Source: Olegusella massiliensis (GTDB taxonomy: Bacteria; Actinomycetota; Coriobacteriia; Coriobacteriales; Atopobiaceae). From it: a stretch of 64,000 bases of DNA. Under the pieces are notes generated by a model. It ran no database searches. It was not told the DNA's origin and worked only from the letters and a program-made list of their open reading frames with translations. Positions 13,917 to 28,326 of the stretch are shown here, in pieces. Numbering within the stretch: the stretch's first letter is position 1; each line of letters opens with the position of its first letter. The stretch is from NCBI RefSeq assembly GCF_900078545.1, contig NZ_FLLS01000002.1, forward strand, positions 62,001 to 126,000, written 5' to 3'. The position numbers and the translations under genes are program-made.

Positions 13917-14723
13917 CTATTTTGCCGCCATAAACGCTAGGGCACCATGGCGACCACAGTGACCGTGCTCAGCGCGATACGAAAAGAAACGATCTGTCGT
14001 ACTCGCCGTTGATTCCTCAACACTCACGATGCGTTCAGGGGCAACTCCCCCATCAAGCAACGCCGCACGCACAGCAAAGCCCAAATCTACATGGCAGCCG
14101 TCAGCTGCTGCTGCCTCACCAAACTCAGCTATAAATCGATGTGCCAAATCAGCGGAAACCTCATAGTCCATCTGTCCAATATGCGGGCCCACGTACGCAT
14201 TGACTTCGCTGGGATGCACGCCCGTCTCTGCACACAGCAGAGACACCGCTTTTTGAGAGATACGCGCAATACTTCCTCGCCACCCAGAATGCACGACGGC
14301 AAAGCCACCTGAGCACGCAAGAATGACAGGTACACAGTCAGCAAAGCAAAGCAAAACAGGCACATTGGGGACGGTACAGATGACACCATCAGCACCAGCT
14401 CGCGCTTCGTCAAAAGCTGCTGACCAAGCTTCGTTACTCTGCTCACTCAAAACAACTAAATGGTCACCATGAACCTGATGAGGATTGATGAGTTTGTCTG
14501 CATAATCTTCACAGCCCAATGCCTCAAGAGCAAGCTTGCGATTAGCGTCTACCACCTTTGGCTCATCGCCACAGGCATCCCCCAAGTTGAGAGAAGTAAA
14601 GGGAGCCTGCGAGCGGCCACCCGTGCGTTCCGTAAAGCTAAGTGTGACCCCGCCAGGACGAGCAAAATCGCCAAGCAGGGTCACACCATACGACTCGTGA
14701 CGGGAAAGAGTCGGCGCTTGCAT
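13917..14723 (-). CDS. pgeF: Peptidoglycan editing factor PgeF (YlmD/laccase-domain)
   Basis: A 268-residue member of the former multicopper polyphenol oxidase/YfiH family. PgeF hydrolyses UDP-MurNAc-L-Ser to correct mis-loaded precursors. The metal-binding motifs are visible: NPHQVHG, CFADCVPV, VVHSGWRGS and YVGPHIGQMDYEV. A longer frame runs into ftsZ and is hydrophobic and Pro-rich, unlike the family; the ATG at 14723, directly after the ftsZ stop, gives a family-like start. The ribosome site is weak, so coupling to ftsZ translation is likely. Confidence 0.9.
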   Translation of the reverse strand: MQAPTLSRHESYGVTLLGDFARPGGVTLSFTERTGGRSQAPFTSLNLGDACGDEPKVVDANRKLALEALGCEDYADKLINPHQVHGDHLVVLSEQSNEAWSAAFDEARAGADGVICTVPNVPVLLCFADCVPVILACSGGFAVVHSGWRGSIARISQKAVSLLCAETGVHPSEVNAYVGPHIGQMDYEVSADLAHRFIAEFGEAAAADGCHVDLGFAVRAALLDGGVAPERIVSVEESTASTTDRFFSYRAEHGHCGRHGALAFMAAK

Positions 14724-14724
14724 A

Positions 14725-15858
14725 CTAGATGCGGCTATTCCTGAGGAAGTCGGGAATGTCAAAAGCCTTGTCATTGCCCGACGGCTGAGGAGTGGAGGTG
14801 CGGGTGGTGGTCTGAGTGCTGCGAGAGCTAGAAGCAGCAGGACGGCTGGGGCGAGAAGGCCTACGGTCAACGTTCATCTCGGGCAGCTTCTCTTGGACAT
14901 TACCGCCATCAAAACCGGTAGCGATAACGGTCACGCGAACCTGATCGCCAAGACTCTCGTCAACAACGGTACCAAAGATGATGTTGGCCTCAGGGTCAAC
15001 ATTTTTAGCGACAACGTCTGCAGCATCGTTAATCTCTTGGATGCCCAAGTCCTTGTTGCCAGCAATGGAAAGCAGAACACGAGTTGCGCCATCAATAGAG
15101 CTCTCAAGCAGGCGGCTAGAAATGGCTTCTTCGGCAGCATCGACTGCACGATTGTCACCAGAAGCAGTACCGATACCCATCATTGCGGTGCCAGCACCCT
15201 TCATGATGGTAGTGACATCTGCAAAGTCGAGGTTAATCAAACCAGGAACAGTAATGAGGTCGGTAATACCTTGGGTGCCCTGGCAGAGGACATCATCTGC
15301 CATGTGGAAGGCCTCGAGCATCGTGGTCTTTTTCTCAGAAAGATCAAGGAGACGATCGTTGGGGATAACGATGAGGGTATCAACGTTCTCAGAGAGACGC
15401 TCGATACCATCAACAGCATTAGCAGAACGCTTACGACCCTCAAAGGTAAAGGGGCGCGTAACAACACCAACAGTCAAAGCGCCGAGATCATTTTTTGCAA
15501 TATCGGCAACAACGGGTGCGGCTCCTGTGCCTGTGCCGCCACCCTCGCCAGCCGTAATAAAGACCATATCGGAGCCGGCAAGTGCAGCCTTGATCTCATC
15601 ATGCGAATCCTCAGCAGCCTCAGCACCAACCTCAGGACGAGCGCCAGCACCCAGACCCTTGGTCAAATCAGATCCAATGTGCACCTTAATGTCAGCATCG
15701 GAAATAGCAAGCTGCTGTGCGTCCGTGTTGATTGCCACGAACTCGACACCACGAATTCCCTCTTCAATCATACGGTTGACAGCGTTCGTGCCGCCGCCAC
15801 CAACGCCAACCACCTTGATGACTGCAAGGTAATTGTTGAGGTTATCGTCGTTCGTCAT
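14725..15858 (-). CDS. ftsZ: Cell division GTPase FtsZ
   Basis: A 377-residue tubulin-like GTPase that forms the Z ring. The signature [11 protein letters not shown], the N-terminal [15 protein letters not shown] and the T7 segment [10 protein letters not shown] are intact. The C-terminus has a Ser/Thr/Arg linker and ends FDIPDFLRN, the conserved tail that binds SepF or FtsA. The ATG at 15858 is preceded by GGAGGTCCTACC. The frame stays open for 32 more codons to an upstream ATG at 15954 and would add a very basic extension; the strong ribosome site favours the shorter form. The upstream leader holds large inverted repeats. Confidence 0.96.
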
Positions 15859-16225
15859 GGTAGGACCTCCTGTTGTTTGTTGTACGACTCTTTGGTGCAC
15901 CTGTGCCTGTATTGCATGTGTGTTGCGTTTACGTACATTCCTGTTTTTTGCCATGTAGTACTTCTTTCTGCCGCGCCTCCGTGCATCGCCGCTTACGCGG
16001 CAGAACGCGCTTTAGAAGATTCGAGAAACACTAAACCTCAAGTTGACCTCGATGTTTGTTCTAAAGCGCGTTATGTTTGCACATGCGCGGAGTCACGTCA
16101 AGCAAAATTTTTTAAATTGTGGAAATTGCAGGAAAAAGCAGCTTATTTGCTTATTTATCCCGTCTTACCGTGAGTTTTTTTAATTATTTGGCTGGAACTG
16201 TGCTAAATGTCTCAAGGCAGATACT
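15859..16225. other. ftsQ-ftsZ intergenic region with nested inverted repeats
   Basis: No gene is seen here apart from the possible N-terminal extension of ftsZ. The region holds a 10-bp perfect inverted repeat (15966-15975 with 15996-16005) and, overlapping its end, a 14-bp perfect repeat (16004-16017 with 16059-16072). A TTGACG sits at about 16092-16097 on the minus strand, so a separate ftsZ promoter is plausible. Confidence 0.7.
15966..16072 (-). repeat. Two abutting perfect inverted repeats upstream of ftsZ
   Basis: The first pair is TTCTGCCGCG/CGCGGCAGAA with a 20-base loop. The second is AACGCGCTTTAGAA/TTCTAAAGCGCGTT with a 41-base spacer, and a further AAACA/TGTTT pairing lies inside. 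Neither is followed by a T-run, so a plain terminator is unlikely. The position 110-215 bases before the ftsZ start suggests an operator or a structured 5' leader. Confidence 0.75.
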
Positions 16226-17515
16226 TTAGACTTCAGAGTTTGACTCATCTGGAGAGCTTGAATCTACTTGAGGGTTTTCATTGTCGCCTTCAAGGCTTTG
16301 TTCGCTCTCGTCAGACACAGCGCTACTACCATCATCAGAGCCCGTATTACCCTGACTCTTTGATCCACTGGAATTTGCTGCAATGACAGAATCATCGGTA
16401 CTGACGCCTTCACCTAAAGCGCCCGTTCCTTCTTGGACATTATCTGATTCAATCATGCGATATGACGGATTACTTGCTACGCGAACGTTGATATAGGTAA
16501 TCTTGCCCGGATGCTTTTTGAGCAAAGCCAAAATAACTGATTCTTTGGCAGTAATATCTGTTGCCTTACCCAAAGAAACGGTAACACCTGACTTGAGCGT
16601 ACAACTCACACTCGCAGCAGACGGTGCAGAATAACTCAAAATCTGTTTCGAAAGCTCTTTGGTAAAGTCTTCATCAAACTTGATAGCAGCTTGCAAACTC
16701 TCGGCTTTGGCCTGAGAGCCAGCATGCGGATTGAGTTTTGCCGGTGAGTCTGCAATAAGCAGGGCTCCCATACTCTGAGCTTTCTTGAGTACAGCGGCTT
16801 TGAAACTTTCACCGCTTTCGGCTTTGACCGAGATGGGCTCTAACCATACGTCGCCATCACCCAAACACCACACAACCTCACTGCCATTCATAATGACTAA
16901 AGCCCTTACCTTATGCTCGGTCACCGTAATTTTGAGGGTTGAAGGAAAGACACGTGATAGATGTACCTCAGCAACCCAGGGATTACGCTTGATGTTTTCC
17001 TCAATTTTGTCAGCGTCAAAATTGAGCAGCGTTGCTCCCTCTTCTACTTGAGCAAGACGCACAATACTGCTATCCGAGACATGCTCACTAGAGGTCGCCA
17101 CCACATTGTTAATAGTAAAGACGCTTGTATATGAAAGAGCAGTAAGCGCAATAACTCCAATAACAGCGAGTGTAGCCAATACAATGACCGCAATAGCAAT
17201 GCTCTTGAGGGTTGGGGTATGCCGCGCACCCTCATCAGACGGTGTTGTTGACTGACGCTGGCTACGGCGTGCGGCAGGAGATGGCGCAGCAAAGATTTGC
17301 TTCTTTTTAGGAGTCGCCGAAGCTGCTGGTACAGGGGTTTGCAGACGTCCTGTTTGAACAGAACGTTTGCCTATTTTAGGTAGACGTGAACCTGCACTGC
17401 TCGTAGCTGCTGAAAGCTTAGGCGTGCTCTTCTTGCTACCCCCAGTCACAGAAGCTTTGCTTCGTGGGGTGGGCTTACGGGGAGTTGGCTTTTTTGGTGT
17501 GTTGTCTTGAGCCAT
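16226..17515 (-). CDS. ftsQ: Cell division protein FtsQ/DivIB
   Basis: A 429-residue single-pass divisome protein. A basic Pro/Ser/Lys-rich cytoplasmic N-terminus of about 105 residues precedes one transmembrane helix (IAIAVIVLATLAVIGVIAL). Next come a POTRA domain (FTINNVVATSSEHVSDSSI, GATLLNFD, NPWVAEVHLSRVFPSTLKITVTEH) and the FtsQ beta domain. The last 60 or so residues are Ser/Glu/Asp-rich and probably disordered. Both tails make it longer than most relatives. It follows murB by 11 bases, so the two are likely cotranscribed. Confidence 0.88.
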   Translation of the reverse strand: MAQDNTPKKPTPRKPTPRSKASVTGGSKKSTPKLSAATSSAGSRLPKIGKRSVQTGRLQTPVPAASATPKKKQIFAAPSPAARRSQRQSTTPSDEGARHTPTLKSIAIAVIVLATLAVIGVIALTALSYTSVFTINNVVATSSEHVSDSSIVRLAQVEEGATLLNFDADKIEENIKRNPWVAEVHLSRVFPSTLKITVTEHKVRALVIMNGSEVVWCLGDGDVWLEPISVKAESGESFKAAVLKKAQSMGALLIADSPAKLNPHAGSQAKAESLQAAIKFDEDFTKELSKQILSYSAPSAASVSCTLKSGVTVSLGKATDITAKESVILALLKKHPGKITYINVRVASNPSYRMIESDNVQEGTGALGEGVSTDDSVIAANSSGSKSQGNTGSDDGSSAVSDESEQSLEGDNENPQVDSSSPDESNSEV

Positions 17516-17526
17516 ACGTAACTTTC

Positions 17527-18441
17527 CTATATCTCAAAACCGAGGAGCTTAAGCTCGGAATGTAAATCAACGGAACTATTTGCCAAGACTTCACTATGTA
17601 CACGATTCATCAAGGCAAGCACATCAGCTGCGCAGGCTCCACCACGATTGACCACATAATTTGCTTGGCTAGGATGCAATTGTGCGCCACCTTCACGAGC
17701 TCCGCGCAAACCACAACGTCTCACCAATTCATTCACCGACGCAGCACGTGGTTCTACAAAAAGCGCCCCACAACTCTGAGCACCTAAAGGCAAAATACTA
17801 CGCTCACCAAGATGCGTTTCCATCTTCTGAGCAATTGCCTCTACCTGAGCTGGCTGCAAAGAAAAAGTAACTTCGAGGATAATCTCGTCTGTTGGCAAAG
17901 AACACCACCGACGATCCCAATCAATCTCTGCAGCTGGACGCCGAACGAGTCCTACACCAGGTTTAAGGCTTACTACATCGTGCACGATACTACTCAGCCA
18001 GCGACGTTCAGTACCAGCATTCATTAAGAGTGCCCCGCCTACGCTACCTGGAATACCTGCGAGAAACTCCATACCAGAAAGTCCTGCTGTAAGAGCAGTT
18101 GAGCAGGCCTTAGCCAGACGAGTCGCAGCACCAGCAGTTACCATGCCTGTTGGGCCGTCTACACTGAGCTTTTCAAACTCCCCTGTCAGGACAATAACGC
18201 AACCACGGTAACCCTCATCAGAAGCAAGTATTGATGACCCACGGCCTAAAATAACCCAAGGCAGTTTCTGCATACTCAGCACTTCTAACGTACGCGAAAG
18301 TGCTGCATAGTCATGCGGAGCAACATAAAGCGCCGCGGCGCCACCAATGCGCACAGACGTCAAGCGAGACAGAGCTACGTCCCGTTTTACCTCAGCATGT
18401 ATCTTCCCCGAAAGGGCTATGTAGGCATTAAATACGCTCAC
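17527..18441 (-). CDS. murB: UDP-N-acetylenolpyruvoylglucosamine reductase MurB, divergent
   Basis: A 304-residue FAD enzyme that reduces UDP-GlcNAc-enolpyruvate to UDP-MurNAc. The FAD domain is clear: TSVRIGGAA, ILGRGSSIL, GLSGMEFLAGIPGSVGGALLMNAG. The C-terminal part has GLRGAREGGA and VDLHSELKLLGF, which keeps the late glutamate. The segment that normally reads CGSVF, with the serine (sometimes cysteine) that protonates the substrate, reads CGALF here: residue 226 is alanine, encoded by GCG. The YRxS segment is also altered. The start overlaps the murC stop (ATGA), and the gene is complete without frameshift. Confidence 0.85.
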   Translation of the reverse strand: MSVFNAYIALSGKIHAEVKRDVALSRLTSVRIGGAAALYVAPHDYAALSRTLEVLSMQKLPWVILGRGSSILASDEGYRGCVIVLTGEFEKLSVDGPTGMVTAGAATRLAKACSTALTAGLSGMEFLAGIPGSVGGALLMNAGTERRWLSSIVHDVVSLKPGVGLVRRPAAEIDWDRRWCSLPTDEIILEVTFSLQPAQVEAIAQKMETHLGERSILPLGAQSCGALFVEPRAASVNELVRRCGLRGAREGGAQLHPSQANYVVNRGGACAADVLALMNRVHSEVLANSSVDLHSELKLLGFEI

Positions 18442-19868
18442 AAGCTCTCGCTTGTCCCTTCCGCGTCACGCTCTCGTAGAGCATCAAGCAAAGCTGGCCC
18501 AACCTGAGTAACATCGCCCGCACCCTGAGTAATCACCAAATCACCTGGACGGCATAATTGGACAAGCTGGGAGATAAGCTTACGACGATTAGGCTGATAT
18601 TCCACCTGTTGAACATGCCCGTTGTCTTTGACCGAATTTGCAACCGTTTTACCCGAAACGCCAGGAATCGGCATTTCCCCAGCAGAAAAAACGTCCATCA
18701 CTACAAGCACATCAGCATTATCAAAAGCAGCGCCAAATTCACTCGCCAGCGCCTGAGTTCTGCTGTAGCGATGCGGTTGAAAAACGCAGACTACGCGTTC
18801 AAAGCCTAGTTTGGAAGCCGCAGTAAGGGTAGCCTCAATCTCAGTGGGATGGTGTCCATAATCATCAACCACAGTGATTCCTGCTACATCACCGACATGC
18901 GTAAAACGACGGTGGGCACCCTTGAACTCGGCTACAGCTGCAGCTGCCTTTTCAAGGTCAAGATTCAAAACGCCCGCTACCGCAAGAGCAGCTGTTGCAT
19001 TTGCCATATTGTGCTCACCTGGATTGGCGTGTAAACCAGAATGCACCGTCACACCACAAGGGCAGACCACATCAAAGTAACTCTGCAGGCCCCGCTGCGT
19101 CTCACTAGGCACACAGCGATAATCGACATTTTCACCAAAACCATAGGTCACGACCTTGCAACCTGTAGACTTGGCAAGTTCAACATAGTGGGGATTGTCA
19201 CCAAAGATAACAATGGTGCCCTCTTCGCCTACCAGCTCCATGAACTGACAAAAGGTCTTCTCGATATTCTCCAGCGTGCCGTAGTGATCGAGGTGATCGG
19301 CCTCAATGTTGGTTACAACAACCACATTGGGATTGAGAAAGAGAAAAGAGCCATCAGACTCATCTGCTTCGCAGACAAAGTAGCCACCAGAACCATTGCG
19401 ACCATTGGTGCCATATTCCTCAACGATGCCACCAATGAGGAAAGAAGGGTCACAACCTAGATGGTCAAGCATGGTGGCCACCAGAGAGCTTGTTGTAGTT
19501 TTTCCATGGGTGCCAGCAACGGCAATCGTCTTTGCACCCTCTCCCAGCGCAGAAAGCATCTGAGCACGACGCCAGACGGTAATACCCAGCTCACGCGCAC
19601 GAACAAGCTCGGGGTTAGTCTCGGGAATTGCGGTAGAAATAACAACCACATCGGGCTTGAGCTCGTCAATAGTTGCTGCTTGATGACCAATGCGGACATC
19701 AATGCCCGCATGCTCTAGGTCACGCACGTAACTCGAGTTCTTCAGATCAGAACCTGTGACCTTGCAACCCCGCTGAAAAAGAACAAGCGCAATACCACTC
19801 ATGCCTGCGCCACCGATACCAATAAAATGTGCACTCGAGAACTTAGGAGCCTGGGTAGTTTGAGTCAT
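18438..19868 (-). CDS. murC: UDP-N-acetylmuramate-L-alanine ligase
   Basis: A 476-residue Mur ligase that adds L-alanine to UDP-MurNAc using ATP. It has the N-terminal HFIGIGGAGMSGIA, the P-loop VAGTHGKTTTSS, the central EADESDGSF and DHLDHYG, and the C-terminal DDYGHHPTEIEAT. The ATG at 19868 follows GAAGAGGCTTAC; a frame open 28 codons further upstream lacks family similarity. In other genomes murC follows murG directly. Here 7 kb of opposite-strand genes lie between, so murC must have its own promoter in the roughly 280 bases before tetR. Confidence 0.95.
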   Translation of the reverse strand: MTQTTQAPKFSSAHFIGIGGAGMSGIALVLFQRGCKVTGSDLKNSSYVRDLEHAGIDVRIGHQAATIDELKPDVVVISTAIPETNPELVRARELGITVWRRAQMLSALGEGAKTIAVAGTHGKTTTSSLVATMLDHLGCDPSFLIGGIVEEYGTNGRNGSGGYFVCEADESDGSFLFLNPNVVVVTNIEADHLDHYGTLENIEKTFCQFMELVGEEGTIVIFGDNPHYVELAKSTGCKVVTYGFGENVDYRCVPSETQRGLQSYFDVVCPCGVTVHSGLHANPGEHNMANATAALAVAGVLNLDLEKAAAAVAEFKGAHRRFTHVGDVAGITVVDDYGHHPTEIEATLTAASKLGFERVVCVFQPHRYSRTQALASEFGAAFDNADVLVVMDVFSAGEMPIPGVSGKTVANSVKDNGHVQQVEYQPNRRKLISQLVQLCRPGDLVITQGAGDVTQVGPALLDALRERDAEGTSESL

Positions 19869-20075
19869 GTAAGCCTCTTCTCTTGCAAATACATTTTTAA
19901 ATACTTTAACGGATAGAGAAGTACTTGGTCGCCTACAGCAAACAGTTGCCATGAAAAGACCCTCTTATCTTGCCTCGTCACCTACTCAGCAGCGCGTCAT
20001 GACTTCATTTCGAAAGAGATTGTGTGCCGTCCAACGCACAAACAGTCCCAACGTAATGCCGCAAGAAAATCATGG

Positions 20076-20107: not shown

Positions 20108-20126
20108 GTGATAACAACGTTATCAC
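20108..20126. promoter_or_regulatory. Second palindrome in the tetR leader
   Basis: GTGATAAC and GTTATCAC form a perfect 8-bp inverted repeat around a 3-base centre, just downstream of the tetR promoter. It differs from the AGTTAG-type sites, so it may bind another regulator or be a variant operator. Confidence 0.5.
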
Positions 20127-20152
20127 CCTTGAAATCTGCACATAGGAGCAGT

Positions 20153-20776
20153 ATGGCAACCTTCGATAAAGCAATTGATCCAATGATTAAGGAGAGTGCA
20201 AAAGAAGAATTTCTAGAAAAGGGTTTCCTTAACGCATCTCTGCGTAAAATTTGCGCGAAGGCTGGCGTCACAACGGGAGCGTTGTACAAGCGTTACGGTG
20301 GAAAAGAAGACCTTTTCCAAGCACTGGTGCAGCCTACCGTGGACGATATCGACGCGGTCATTGCATCCAAGAGCATCAATTACTCCACAATGACAGATGG
20401 TCAGCTCTACGACATGTGGACGCTAACCGAAGGCTATATGGACTGGTGGTTCGAATTCATGATCGCCCGAAAAGATGGCTTCACACTGCTCGTCAAGTGC
20501 TCGGAGGGAACGCGCTATCAGGACTTCCAACACGAACTTGTCGAAAAAGTATGCGCGGAAACCTACAAGTGTTATCAAGCAGCAGCGGATCGCAGCCTTG
20601 CCAGAGTCGGCATCACTCCGCGGGAACTTCACGTGCTGACAACCGCATTCTGGAGCACGATGTTCGAACCTTTCATACATGATTTCACCGACGAGGAAAT
20701 CCGGCTCCACTGTCAGCTGACCATCCAATTCATCGATTGGCATCGCGCCCTTGGCTTTTCGGAGCCGAAGGCCTGA
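20153..20776 (+). CDS. TetR/AcrR family regulator
   Basis: A 207-residue DNA-binding repressor. The N-terminal helix-turn-helix (ASLRKICAKAGVTTGALYKRYGGKEDLFQAL) is typical of the family; the ligand-binding remainder is Trp/Tyr-rich and unassigned. The ATG at 20153 is preceded by AGGAG. It is the first gene of the plus-strand insertion in the dcw cluster. Palindromes lie both at its own promoter and before the ABC genes 60 bases downstream, which suggests it controls itself and the transport operon. The inducing ligand is probably the transported compound or a related metal complex, but this is inference. Confidence 0.85.
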   Translation: MATFDKAIDPMIKESAKEEFLEKGFLNASLRKICAKAGVTTGALYKRYGGKEDLFQALVQPTVDDIDAVIASKSINYSTMTDGQLYDMWTLTEGYMDWWFEFMIARKDGFTLLVKCSEGTRYQDFQHELVEKVCAETYKCYQAAADRSLARVGITPRELHVLTTAFWSTMFEPFIHDFTDEEIRLHCQLTIQFIDWHRALGFSEPKA

Positions 20777-20804
20777 TAAAGAAGAGTTTATTTTTTAGCT
20801 ATCG

Positions 20805-20822
20805 AGTTAGATAAATCTAACT
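20805..20822. promoter_or_regulatory. Candidate TetR operator 2, before the ABC/ECF operon
   Basis: AGTTAGAT and ATCTAACT form a perfect 8-bp inverted repeat with a 2-base centre, 15 bases before the GTG start of the first ABC gene. It shares the AGTTAG core with the repeat at the tetR promoter. Confidence 0.65.
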
Positions 20823-20837
20823 AAGAGAGGTGATTCA

Positions 20838-22568
20838 GTGTTTAAAAAAGTCCGACCATACATGGAAGGATACATGGGCTACACATACAAGGCAGTGGCG
20901 TGCGTCTGCATCGCCATCGTGTTGGGCGTCGTCCCATACTTCTTCCTGTATCAAATCCTTGTTCCACTAATCGCAGGACAATCGCTGGAAATGGGATACG
21001 TGCTGCTAATAGTGACGTGTACAGCGGTGTGTCTGGCGGGCAACGCGGTACTGTATGTGAAAGGCCTTGAATATTCCCATATCTGTGCCTATAACACGTT
21101 GAAGAATATCCGCACCATCCTGCAGCAAAAGCTGGAGATGCAGCCGCTTGGCACCATTCGTGAACTAGGCAACGGACGCATCAAAAAGATGTTCACCGAT
21201 GACATCGAAACCATCGAGATCTTGCTTGCGCACGCCATTCCCGAAGGCATCGGAAACTTGCTCGTACCAGTTATTGTGATTTTAGCCATGTTCTTCGTGG
21301 ACTGGAAACTTGCCCTGCTATGCATCGCCTCCCTGCCGTTGGGCCTGCTGGCCATGGGCATGATGTACAAGGCGGGCATGAGTCGCATGGACGCCTACTA
21401 CGGCTCAGCAGCAAAGATGAACAACACCATCATCGAGTACATCAACGGCATGGAGGTCGTAAAGATCTTCAACCGCGACGGCGAAAGCTATAAGCGCTTT
21501 AAGACCGACATCACGAGCTACCGCGACTTCACGCTGGCGTGGTACAAGGTCTGCTGGCCCTGGATGGCGCTCTATTCCAGCATCATCCCTTGTGTGGCAC
21601 TGTTCACGATTCCCGTCGGTGCTTGGTTTGTGTTACAGGGCTGGAGCACGCTGGCCAACCTCATCCTAGTTGTGTGCATGTCGTTTGCAGTGGGGTCACC
21701 ACTGCTGAAGGCCATGAGCTTCGGCGGTAAGTTCCCGCAACTCAACTACAAGATCGACGAGCTGGAGAAGCTCATTGAGCATCCTGCGCTCAAGCAATCC
21801 GAGCGCAGCTTTGAGGGCGCAAACCACGATATCCGTTTCGAGAATGTGCACTTCACCTACAAGGATACCGAGGTCATCCATGGCATCAACCTGGAACTGA
21901 ATGAAGGCACCATGACAGCACTTGTAGGCGAGAGCGGCAGCGGGAAATCCACCCTGGCAAAGCTGCTGGTACACTTCTACGACCTTGACAGCGGACGCAT
22001 CACACTGGGCGAGCAGGACCTAACCGACATGCGCATCGAGGCACTGAACGATCAGATCTCCTACGTTTCTCAGGAGCAGTTCCTGTTCAACACCAGTCTG
22101 TACGAGAACATCCTCATTGGCCGACCTGAGGCCAGCCGTGAGGAGGTGTTAGAAGCTGCCCGCCGTGCACAATGCGATGAGTTCCTTGCGCGTCTTTCCC
22201 AAGGAATCGACACGCCCGCAGGCGATGGTGGAAAGATGTTATCCGGCGGCGAGCGACAGCGCATCTCTCTCGCGCGGGCATTACTGAAGGATTCTCCGGT
22301 CATCGTGCTGGACGAGGCAACTGCATTCATCGACCCGGAAAACGAGGAGAAGATGAACGCCGCCATCTCCGAGATTATAAAGGGCAAGACAGTGTTGGTC
22401 ATCGCCCACCGGTTGCACACCATTACAGGGGCAAACAAGATAGTTGTGCTAAAAGGCGGCACCATAGATGCGCAAGGCACGCACGAAGAGCTGCTGGACG
22501 CTTCGGAGGAATACCGACGCCTGTGGGCGGCTGCGCAGGAGAGCGCCGCATGGGAGGTAAGGGCATGA
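20838..22568 (+). CDS. ABC half-transporter, exporter fold, first of a pair
   Basis: A 576-residue protein with a six-helix type IV (exporter-fold) membrane domain followed by an ATPase domain. Walker A is GESGSGKST at about residue 364, the signature is LSGGERQRISLARALL and Walker B is VIVLDEAT followed by AFIDPE; the H-loop is VIAHRLH. It starts at GTG with GAGAGGTGATTCA before it. The neighbouring half-transporter overlaps it by four bases, so a heterodimer is likely. Exporter-fold pairs of this kind (IrtAB, YbtPQ) can import metallophores; next to an ECF S/T/A set, import is as plausible as export. Codon use is richer in G and C than in the flanks. Confidence 0.85.
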   Translation: MFKKVRPYMEGYMGYTYKAVACVCIAIVLGVVPYFFLYQILVPLIAGQSLEMGYVLLIVTCTAVCLAGNAVLYVKGLEYSHICAYNTLKNIRTILQQKLEMQPLGTIRELGNGRIKKMFTDDIETIEILLAHAIPEGIGNLLVPVIVILAMFFVDWKLALLCIASLPLGLLAMGMMYKAGMSRMDAYYGSAAKMNNTIIEYINGMEVVKIFNRDGESYKRFKTDITSYRDFTLAWYKVCWPWMALYSSIIPCVALFTIPVGAWFVLQGWSTLANLILVVCMSFAVGSPLLKAMSFGGKFPQLNYKIDELEKLIEHPALKQSERSFEGANHDIRFENVHFTYKDTEVIHGINLELNEGTMTALVGESGSGKSTLAKLLVHFYDLDSGRITLGEQDLTDMRIEALNDQISYVSQEQFLFNTSLYENILIGRPEASREEVLEAARRAQCDEFLARLSQGIDTPAGDGGKMLSGGERQRISLARALLKDSPVIVLDEATAFIDPENEEKMNAAISEIIKGKTVLVIAHRLHTITGANKIVVLKGGTIDAQGTHEELLDASEEYRRLWAAAQESAAWEVRA

Positions 22569-27201: not shown

Positions 27202-28326
27202 TTAACGACGAGCGGTGGCTACCACTTGGTCTGCCAAAGCTGCAGCAGCAGTGGCACCGCCAAGGCCTTGGGCAGCGTGGCGCATCTGGGCGCGAGCATC
27301 GGCATCCGCAAGTAACCCGATGAGCTCATCAGCAAAGCTCTGCTCATCAATAGCTTTGTCGGTATACATACGAGCTGCCCCCGCATCCACCAACAAATGC
27401 GCGTTGGTCTCCTGATGATTTTCTGTTGCAAAAGGATAAGGGACTAATACCGAAGGCACTGCAAGCGCTGCAATTTCTGCAATAGATGAAGCACCTGCGC
27501 GGGATACCACAAGATCGGCAGCTGCTAGTGCCCCTCCCATATCTTCTATGTACGGCAACAGTTGCCAGCGAGCCTTCTCCTCTGCTGTCAAATCCAAAGC
27601 AGCAAGTGTCTCGTCAAAGTCCTTAGCACCTGTCGAGTGGATGATGTAGAGCTTATCCTGTGCCAGTAGCTGTTTTTTAAGCTCGACAATACGATGATTG
27701 AGATGGCGAGCACCAAGACTACCGCCAAAGACTAAAAGCACGGTGGCATCCTCAGGGACACCAAACGTAGCACGGCCTGCAGCTCTACTCGCCTGAACCA
27801 CGGCGCGACGCACAGGATTTCCCGTCAGTACCACTTGGGTCTGCTCGCCTGTTTTACCCGTAAAGGCAGAGCGCGCTGCAGAAAATGACAAGCAAAGACA
27901 AGACGCGTGTTTGGCACAGAGTTTATTGGCGAGCCCTGGCACAGAATTTTGCTCGTGAAGCACATATGGCACGCCCCGTGATGCGCACCAACGCAGCAAG
28001 GGCATTTCAACGTAAGCACCAAAGCCAACAGCAACATCAGGCATACCTTTGTCAGCCATAATCTTGCCTACTGCGCCCTGAGCCTTGTGCATATGCCAAA
28101 CTGCACTCAAGGCAGTCCAAGGACGACTGCGATTAAAACCCGTTACACGAATGGGCACAAAATCAAAACCTGCAGCTGGTACCAGCTGGGCCTCCAGACG
28201 AGTTGATTGTCCAAAGAAAAGCACCTCATGACCGCGAGAAGCAAGTTCATCAGCAAGCGCTAGTGCAGGATTGATGTGACCTGCAGTACCGCCCGCAGCA
28301 ATAGCAATCTTGAGCTTATCTCCCAC
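27202..28326 (-). CDS. murG: UDP-GlcNAc:lipid I transferase MurG
   Basis: A 374-residue GT28 glycosyltransferase that makes lipid II from lipid I at the inner face of the membrane. Conserved features: IAAGGTAGHINPALALA, HEQNSVPGLANKL, GGSLGAR, and SRAGASSIAEIAALAVPSVLVPYP with ATENHQ. The GTG at 28326 is preceded by GGAG at 8 bases and overlaps the ftsW stop; the longer frame to 28389 lies inside ftsW. In the usual dcw order murC would follow; here the next gene downstream is on the other strand. Confidence 0.94.
   Translation of the reverse strand: MGDKLKIAIAAGGTAGHINPALALADELASRGHEVLFFGQSTRLEAQLVPAAGFDFVPIRVTGFNRSRPWTALSAVWHMHKAQGAVGKIMADKGMPDVAVGFGAYVEMPLLRWCASRGVPYVLHEQNSVPGLANKLCAKHASCLCLSFSAARSAFTGKTGEQTQVVLTGNPVRRAVVQASRAAGRATFGVPEDATVLLVFGGSLGARHLNHRIVELKKQLLAQDKLYIIHSTGAKDFDETLAALDLTAEEKARWQLLPYIEDMGGALAAADLVVSRAGASSIAEIAALAVPSVLVPYPFATENHQETNAHLLVDAGAARMYTDKAIDEQSFADELIGLLADADARAQMRHAAQGLGGATAAAALADQVVATARR

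Follow-up and report, generated by a model that had tools for sequence, protein, structure and literature searches.

The dcw-encoded MurB of Olegusella massiliensis, an oral, Atopobium-type bacterium, is probably a pseudoenzyme that has been kept by selection for a second, non-catalytic role. MurB is usually treated as a plain soluble enzyme and antibacterial target. The gene lies at 17527-18441 on the minus strand of the window, the whole stretch of 64,000 nucleotides that was analysed, and its 304-residue product carries alanine at the position of the general-acid serine. Judged from its residues, the protein is very probably catalytically dead; from what is known of the family, it would lack useful reductase activity and would still bind FAD. 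The properties expected of a pseudoenzyme, namely loss of a catalytic residue, purifying selection and the presence of an active paralog, were all found for this copy.

The frame of the window gene is intact over 304 codons, and its GTG start overlaps the stop codon of murC by 4 bases (GTGA). The murC gene (18438-19952, minus strand) lies upstream in the same operon, and an ftsQ-like gene (16226-17515, minus strand), assigned by its conserved position and by homology among relatives, follows directly downstream after a gap of 11 bases. With ftsZ at 14725-15954 (minus strand), the gene order is murC-murB-ftsQ-ftsZ, that of a dcw cluster. The coordinates and the intact frame given in the preliminary description were borne out, the strand being minus. 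Directly after ftsZ, at 13917-14870 on the minus strand, lies a PgeF/YfiH-like (laccase-domain) gene, recognised by its translation only. On the other side, a TetR-like regulator gene and an ABC exporter gene occupy 20108-22568 on the plus strand; because these opposite-strand genes part murC from murG (about 27265-27741, minus strand), the dcw cluster is interrupted in the window. The TetR-like gene adjoining murC is common to the window and Atopobium sp. oral taxon 810.

The window protein is a MurB by both sequence and fold family. The Pfam models MurB_C (75 bits) and FAD_binding_4 both scored over their cut-offs, as did TIGR00179 (149.3 bits against a cut-off of 144.5), and the score with NF010480 was 11 bits under the cut-off of that model. 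An AlphaFold2 model built from 24 sequences had a pLDDT of 93.5 and was superposed on solved MurB structures with Z values of 32-38, the best structural matches all being MurB.

The alignment to solved MurB structures is ungapped across the catalytic motif, with SCGALF in the window protein and SCGSVF in those of Staphylococcus aureus and Listeria. The residue at the position of the catalytic serine (Ser229 in Escherichia coli, Ser239 in Pseudomonas aeruginosa) is Ala226, encoded by GCG at 17764-17766 (minus strand), as the preliminary description had read it. In none of the alignments made does another Ser or Cys of the window protein fall in the catalytic column, which holds Ser or Cys in all 22 aligned MurB proteins of other phyla. 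The window copy thus departs from the general-acid motif CGS[VTI]F of the MurB enzyme. In E. coli, the same serine-to-alanine change reportedly brings a very large loss of rate. Sequencing error was considered as the source of Ala226 and was ruled out: the independently sequenced genome of Atopobium sp. oral taxon 810 F0209, whose copy is 86% identical to that of the window, has SCGALFVEP with the same GCG codon. Since F0209 shares this codon, while TCC (Ser) stands at the site in three other members of the same GTDB genus, the alanine is a fixed change rather than an error.

Further residues differ, including two that had already been pointed out, the change of YR to RR (R177-R178) and that of GSN to GSS (S70). 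Codon 177 (17911-17913, minus strand) is CGT, giving Arg where the YRxS segment has an invariant Tyr, and the next residue, the flavin-side Arg178, is retained. Codon 230 (17752-17754, minus strand) is GAA, giving Glu where live dcw copies have Asn, and codon 259 (17665-17667, minus strand) is CAA, giving Gln where His is invariant across the live copies of both paralogs. Codon 296 (17554-17556, minus strand) is GAG, so that the C-terminal active-site Glu (E. coli Glu325, P. aeruginosa Glu335) is retained as Glu296. These residues were placed in the pocket by aligning them with residues published for P. aeruginosa. In the P. aeruginosa enzyme, the nicotinamide and the enolpyruvyl group of the two substrates are held in place by Ser239 and Glu335, the adenosine of NADP has Asn243 as its binding residue, and the flavin is contacted by Arg166 and Arg224 (PMC3689657). 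These two arginines have counterparts in the window copy, Arg178 and Arg214. Asn243 sits four residues past the serine, the same spacing as that of residue 230, where a carboxylate would plausibly disfavour nucleotide binding.

The window protein had been described as the only MurB of the window, which is correct for the window itself, but the genome (1.81 Mb, 98.7% complete) encodes a second MurB away from the dcw cluster, at C2:523157-523456, 443 kb from the window copy. A second MurB had been put forward as one of two possible explanations of the alanine, and this copy was found to have every catalytic motif intact: GSD, YRTS, SAGSTFKRP, the His of SxxHAGF and the C-terminal Glu. With the murB model it scored 257 bits, against 149 for the window copy. 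Because a MurB with an intact active site is present, the cell is not short of MurB activity. Relatives were searched in two rounds, sixty genomes and then 140 species of the family, many of them metagenome-assembled. Most of the 140 species have both paralogs, a stand-alone MurB and a dcw MurB between murC and ftsQ, and other families of the order show the same arrangement, both copies having Ser. All 52 stand-alone copies of the family type that were read have Ser, including those from genomes with a dead dcw copy. The dcw murB is absent from several genera, in which murC runs directly into ftsQ. An apparent MurC-MurB fusion at the G025 locus was an artefact, murC and murB being in different frames.

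Ser is present in the dcw copy of about 100 species; 13 of the copies read are without it, all with intact frames. The serine is replaced by Ala in G000, G001, G112, G161, G075, G046 and G054, by Pro in G146, by Glu in G006, G016 and G025, and by Gly in G027 and G074. On a quick tree of murC and ftsZ, the serine was lost in seven independent lineages; parsimony gave eight changes, of which seven were real after removal of G029, whose apparent Arg at the site falls in a stretch of Ns in the assembly. The copies of G046 and G054 belong to genus g43 of another family, outside the tree, whose other sampled genus has Ser. With these, the number of independent losses is at least eight. G006, G025, G027 and G074, which represent three genera, form one fully supported, wholly serine-less clade; the dead state can thus persist for a long time.

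Several individual copies are worth recording in their own right. In the three-genus clade (L074, L104, L108, L193), all four copies have Gln for the C-terminal catalytic Glu, and Glu or Gly for the serine, which points to a conserved alternative pocket. In g43 (L260 and L261 from G046; L262 from G054), the serine-less dcw copies read SVDAIFADP and ACDAIFMDP. The second MurB found in G046 is divergent (363 amino acids read, SSGSFFTNP); it exceeds the usual stand-alone paralog in length and does not resemble it, so that replacement of the stand-alone copy is suggested. The dcw MurB of G028 (L110) has Ser and yet Asp at position 230 (SCGSVFRDP); it is possibly an intermediate towards the dead state, or a sign that Asp230 alone is tolerated.

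Of the positions conserved in live dcw copies, those lost among the 13 serine-less copies appear from the alignment to be pocket residues, with the flavin side retained. Ser226 and Asn230 are kept in none, residue 230 being Asp or Glu in every copy, and His259 is kept in one. Phe262 and Met140 are each kept in 5 of 13, and Tyr177, Ser256 and Glu296 each in 7 of 13, so that Glu296 is lost in six. By comparison, none of the 13 has lost the flavin-side Arg178 or Arg214, or any of the FAD-site positions G33, G34, G66, G68, G129, P131, G132, G135 and G136. Across the dead copies, forty other positions common to both paralogs are 95% kept, and fourteen dcw-specific positions outside the pocket about 90% (163 of 182 cells). 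In all seven independent pairs, serine loss is accompanied by an acidic residue at 230 (p 0.016), and in six of the seven by loss of His259.

Selection on the dead copies was estimated with a pairwise codon model. For the window pair (G000-G001, both serine-less), dN/dS of the dcw murB was 0.205 (95% CI 0.142-0.296), as compared with 0.062 for the stand-alone murB, 0.084 for murC, 0.216 for ftsQ and 0.059 for ftsZ; the rate for this murB is therefore above that of murC and of the stand-alone murB, and level with that of ftsQ. For G027-G074, both with Gly, the value was 0.052 (0.025-0.098), against 0.107 (0.056-0.203) for the stand-alone murB. Likelihood ratios against dN/dS = 1 were 58 (G000-G001) and 103 in the two dead pairs. 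Values between genera are saturated and were used only as "far below 1", and the murC comparison of G021-G088, a mis-framed alignment, was left out of the selection data. Because dN/dS in the dead pairs is far below 1, amino acids, and not just the reading frame, are constrained. The signs of a decaying gene (dN/dS near 1, stop codons, frameshifts) were not found in these two pairs, for which dN/dS was 0.205 and 0.052 and the frames are intact. In the three-genus clade, no indel was found over 305 residues at 52-61% identity.

These selection data bear most directly on the view that the dcw copy, made unneeded by the stand-alone MurB, is drifting towards eventual deletion, with the alanine as an early step. 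Repeated clean losses of the dcw murB are consistent with decay, as is a dN/dS of the window pair above that of the same pair's stand-alone copy. Nevertheless, we regard decay as unlikely, since constraint is strong in both dead pairs, the G027-G074 dead copy is not above its live stand-alone counterpart, the dead clade covers three genera without an indel, and the changes are selective for the pocket, residue 230 always being acidic. Decay accounts for the genera that have lost the gene outright, but it leaves the constraint on the dead copies unexplained. A spacer role, in which the translated frame serves only to couple translation of murC and ftsQ, would suit the short junctions on either side of the gene. 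Such a role would select for an open frame rather than for amino acids, however, and the dN/dS values of 0.05-0.2 largely refute it; moreover, murC is joined straight to ftsQ in other species. Its probability is close to negligible.

Two further explanations leave the pocket in use. A still-working MurB might draw its proton from another donor, such as Cys224, Glu296, water or, in some species, Glu226; the retained FAD-side residues and Glu296 of the window copy, and the Glu in place of Ser in three dead species, are in keeping with this. Takeover by the neighbouring Cys224 had been proposed in the preliminary description, but this Cys is ancestral: active dcw copies have it together with Ser (SCGSVF, CCGSVF), and several serine-less ones are without it (SAGAVF, SGGAVF, CAGETF, STGEVF). 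Because active copies also carry it, Cys224 is not a replacement donor. His259, Tyr177 and residue 230 have changed besides, and the genome has no need of a second active MurB. Furthermore, it was with S229A, the same change, that Ser229 was established as the E. coli general acid (Benson 1997, as cited in PMC3689657 and PMC4408115). A working enzyme is accordingly very improbable. The remodelled pocket, with its acidic residue 230 and its changes at 226 and 259, might alternatively bind another ligand, making the protein a neofunctionalised flavoprotein, either a sensor or a different oxidoreductase. Flavin-binding residues are indeed kept, and the change at 230 is convergent and directed. 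However, residue 226 has become four different amino acids and residue 259 five or more, so that the pattern looks like loss rather than one new chemistry, and no genomic link to another pathway was seen. We hold a new flavoprotein function to be improbable, if slightly less so than another proton donor.

A pseudoenzyme maintained for a non-catalytic role would have arisen as follows. An old duplication in the order would have given two MurB paralogs, with UDP-N-acetylenolpyruvoylglucosamine reductase activity supplied by the stand-alone one. The dcw copy in the window's lineage lost the general-acid serine and several substrate-side residues, while retaining the FAD-binding fold and its own dcw-specific residues under selection for the protein. 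It would most likely have been retained for a non-catalytic role that it already held while active. The recurrence of serine loss in relatives also points towards such a role, and in several lineages the dcw copy would keep nothing else. As a guess, candidate roles are partner binding in a cytoplasmic Mur/division complex, with the translationally coupled neighbour MurC as one possible partner, or regulation of flux. Membership of the Mur/division complex can reasonably be guessed at, and a place in a Mur complex is the most economical guess, because Mur enzymes are reported to co-localise and to form MurG-organised complexes, and because MurB-MurC fusions are known. Such a role would not be universal and would be dispensable in some genera, since the dcw copy is absent there and murC stands directly before ftsQ. 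This absence, the retention of Glu296 and the faster evolution of the window pair relative to murC and the stand-alone murB count against the pseudoenzyme reading. A broader proposal is that, ever since the duplication, the dcw MurB of Coriobacteriales has served the Mur/division complex in a structural or regulatory role that does not depend on its chemistry, and that at least eight lineages have arrived convergently at an acidified pocket which excludes substrate, so that this role alone is left; we advance this tentatively, as a possibility somewhat short of even chances.

A non-catalytic organising role of Mur enzymes is an idea that has long been discussed. If the pseudoenzyme reading is true, a MurB repeatedly stripped of its chemistry and yet kept would be natural evidence for a non-catalytic function in organising division peptidoglycan synthesis, and the serine-less dcw copies would be ready-made natural separation-of-function variants. 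Three aspects go beyond what the preliminary description had in view: serine loss is recurrent, it comes with specific pocket changes, and the dead copies are under purifying selection. There is also a practical consequence. Automatic annotation labels the serine-less copies as the enzyme, TIGR00179 being over its cut-off, and essentiality or drug-target calls made from the dcw copy alone would therefore be wrong in these genomes.

How does the window protein compare with known systems? With the canonical MurB of the S. aureus-like type (TIGR00179; Pfam MurB_C and FAD_binding_4), it shares the fold, length, FAD-binding motifs and flavin-side arginines, as well as a place in the dcw cluster with murC on one side and ftsQ on the other. 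It differs in the Ser-to-Ala change, in the changes at Asn230, His259, Tyr177 and the Asn of GSN, and in that a second, complete MurB would do the reaction in its genome. No MurB pseudoenzyme, and no pair of MurB proteins in Atopobium, was found described in the open-access literature searched. Cytoplasmic Mur enzymes, MurB included, are reported to co-localise, MurB-MurC fusions are known, and MurG/Mur ligase complexes or Mur fusions are described from Bordetella pertussis, Thermotoga maritima and Caulobacter crescentus; the Mur enzymes of these systems are active, and no catalytically dead MurB is described among them (PMC6420597). The nearest laboratory counterpart is the S229A mutant of E. 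coli MurB (PDB 1uxy), which has the same Ser-to-Ala change and whose structure is matched by the predicted fold (Z 32.2), whereas the window copy carries it as a natural change, fixed in two species, with further substitutions in the pocket. As a class, pseudoenzymes kept as scaffolds or regulators share with the window copy a retained fold, lost catalytic residues, purifying selection and an active paralog in the same genome.
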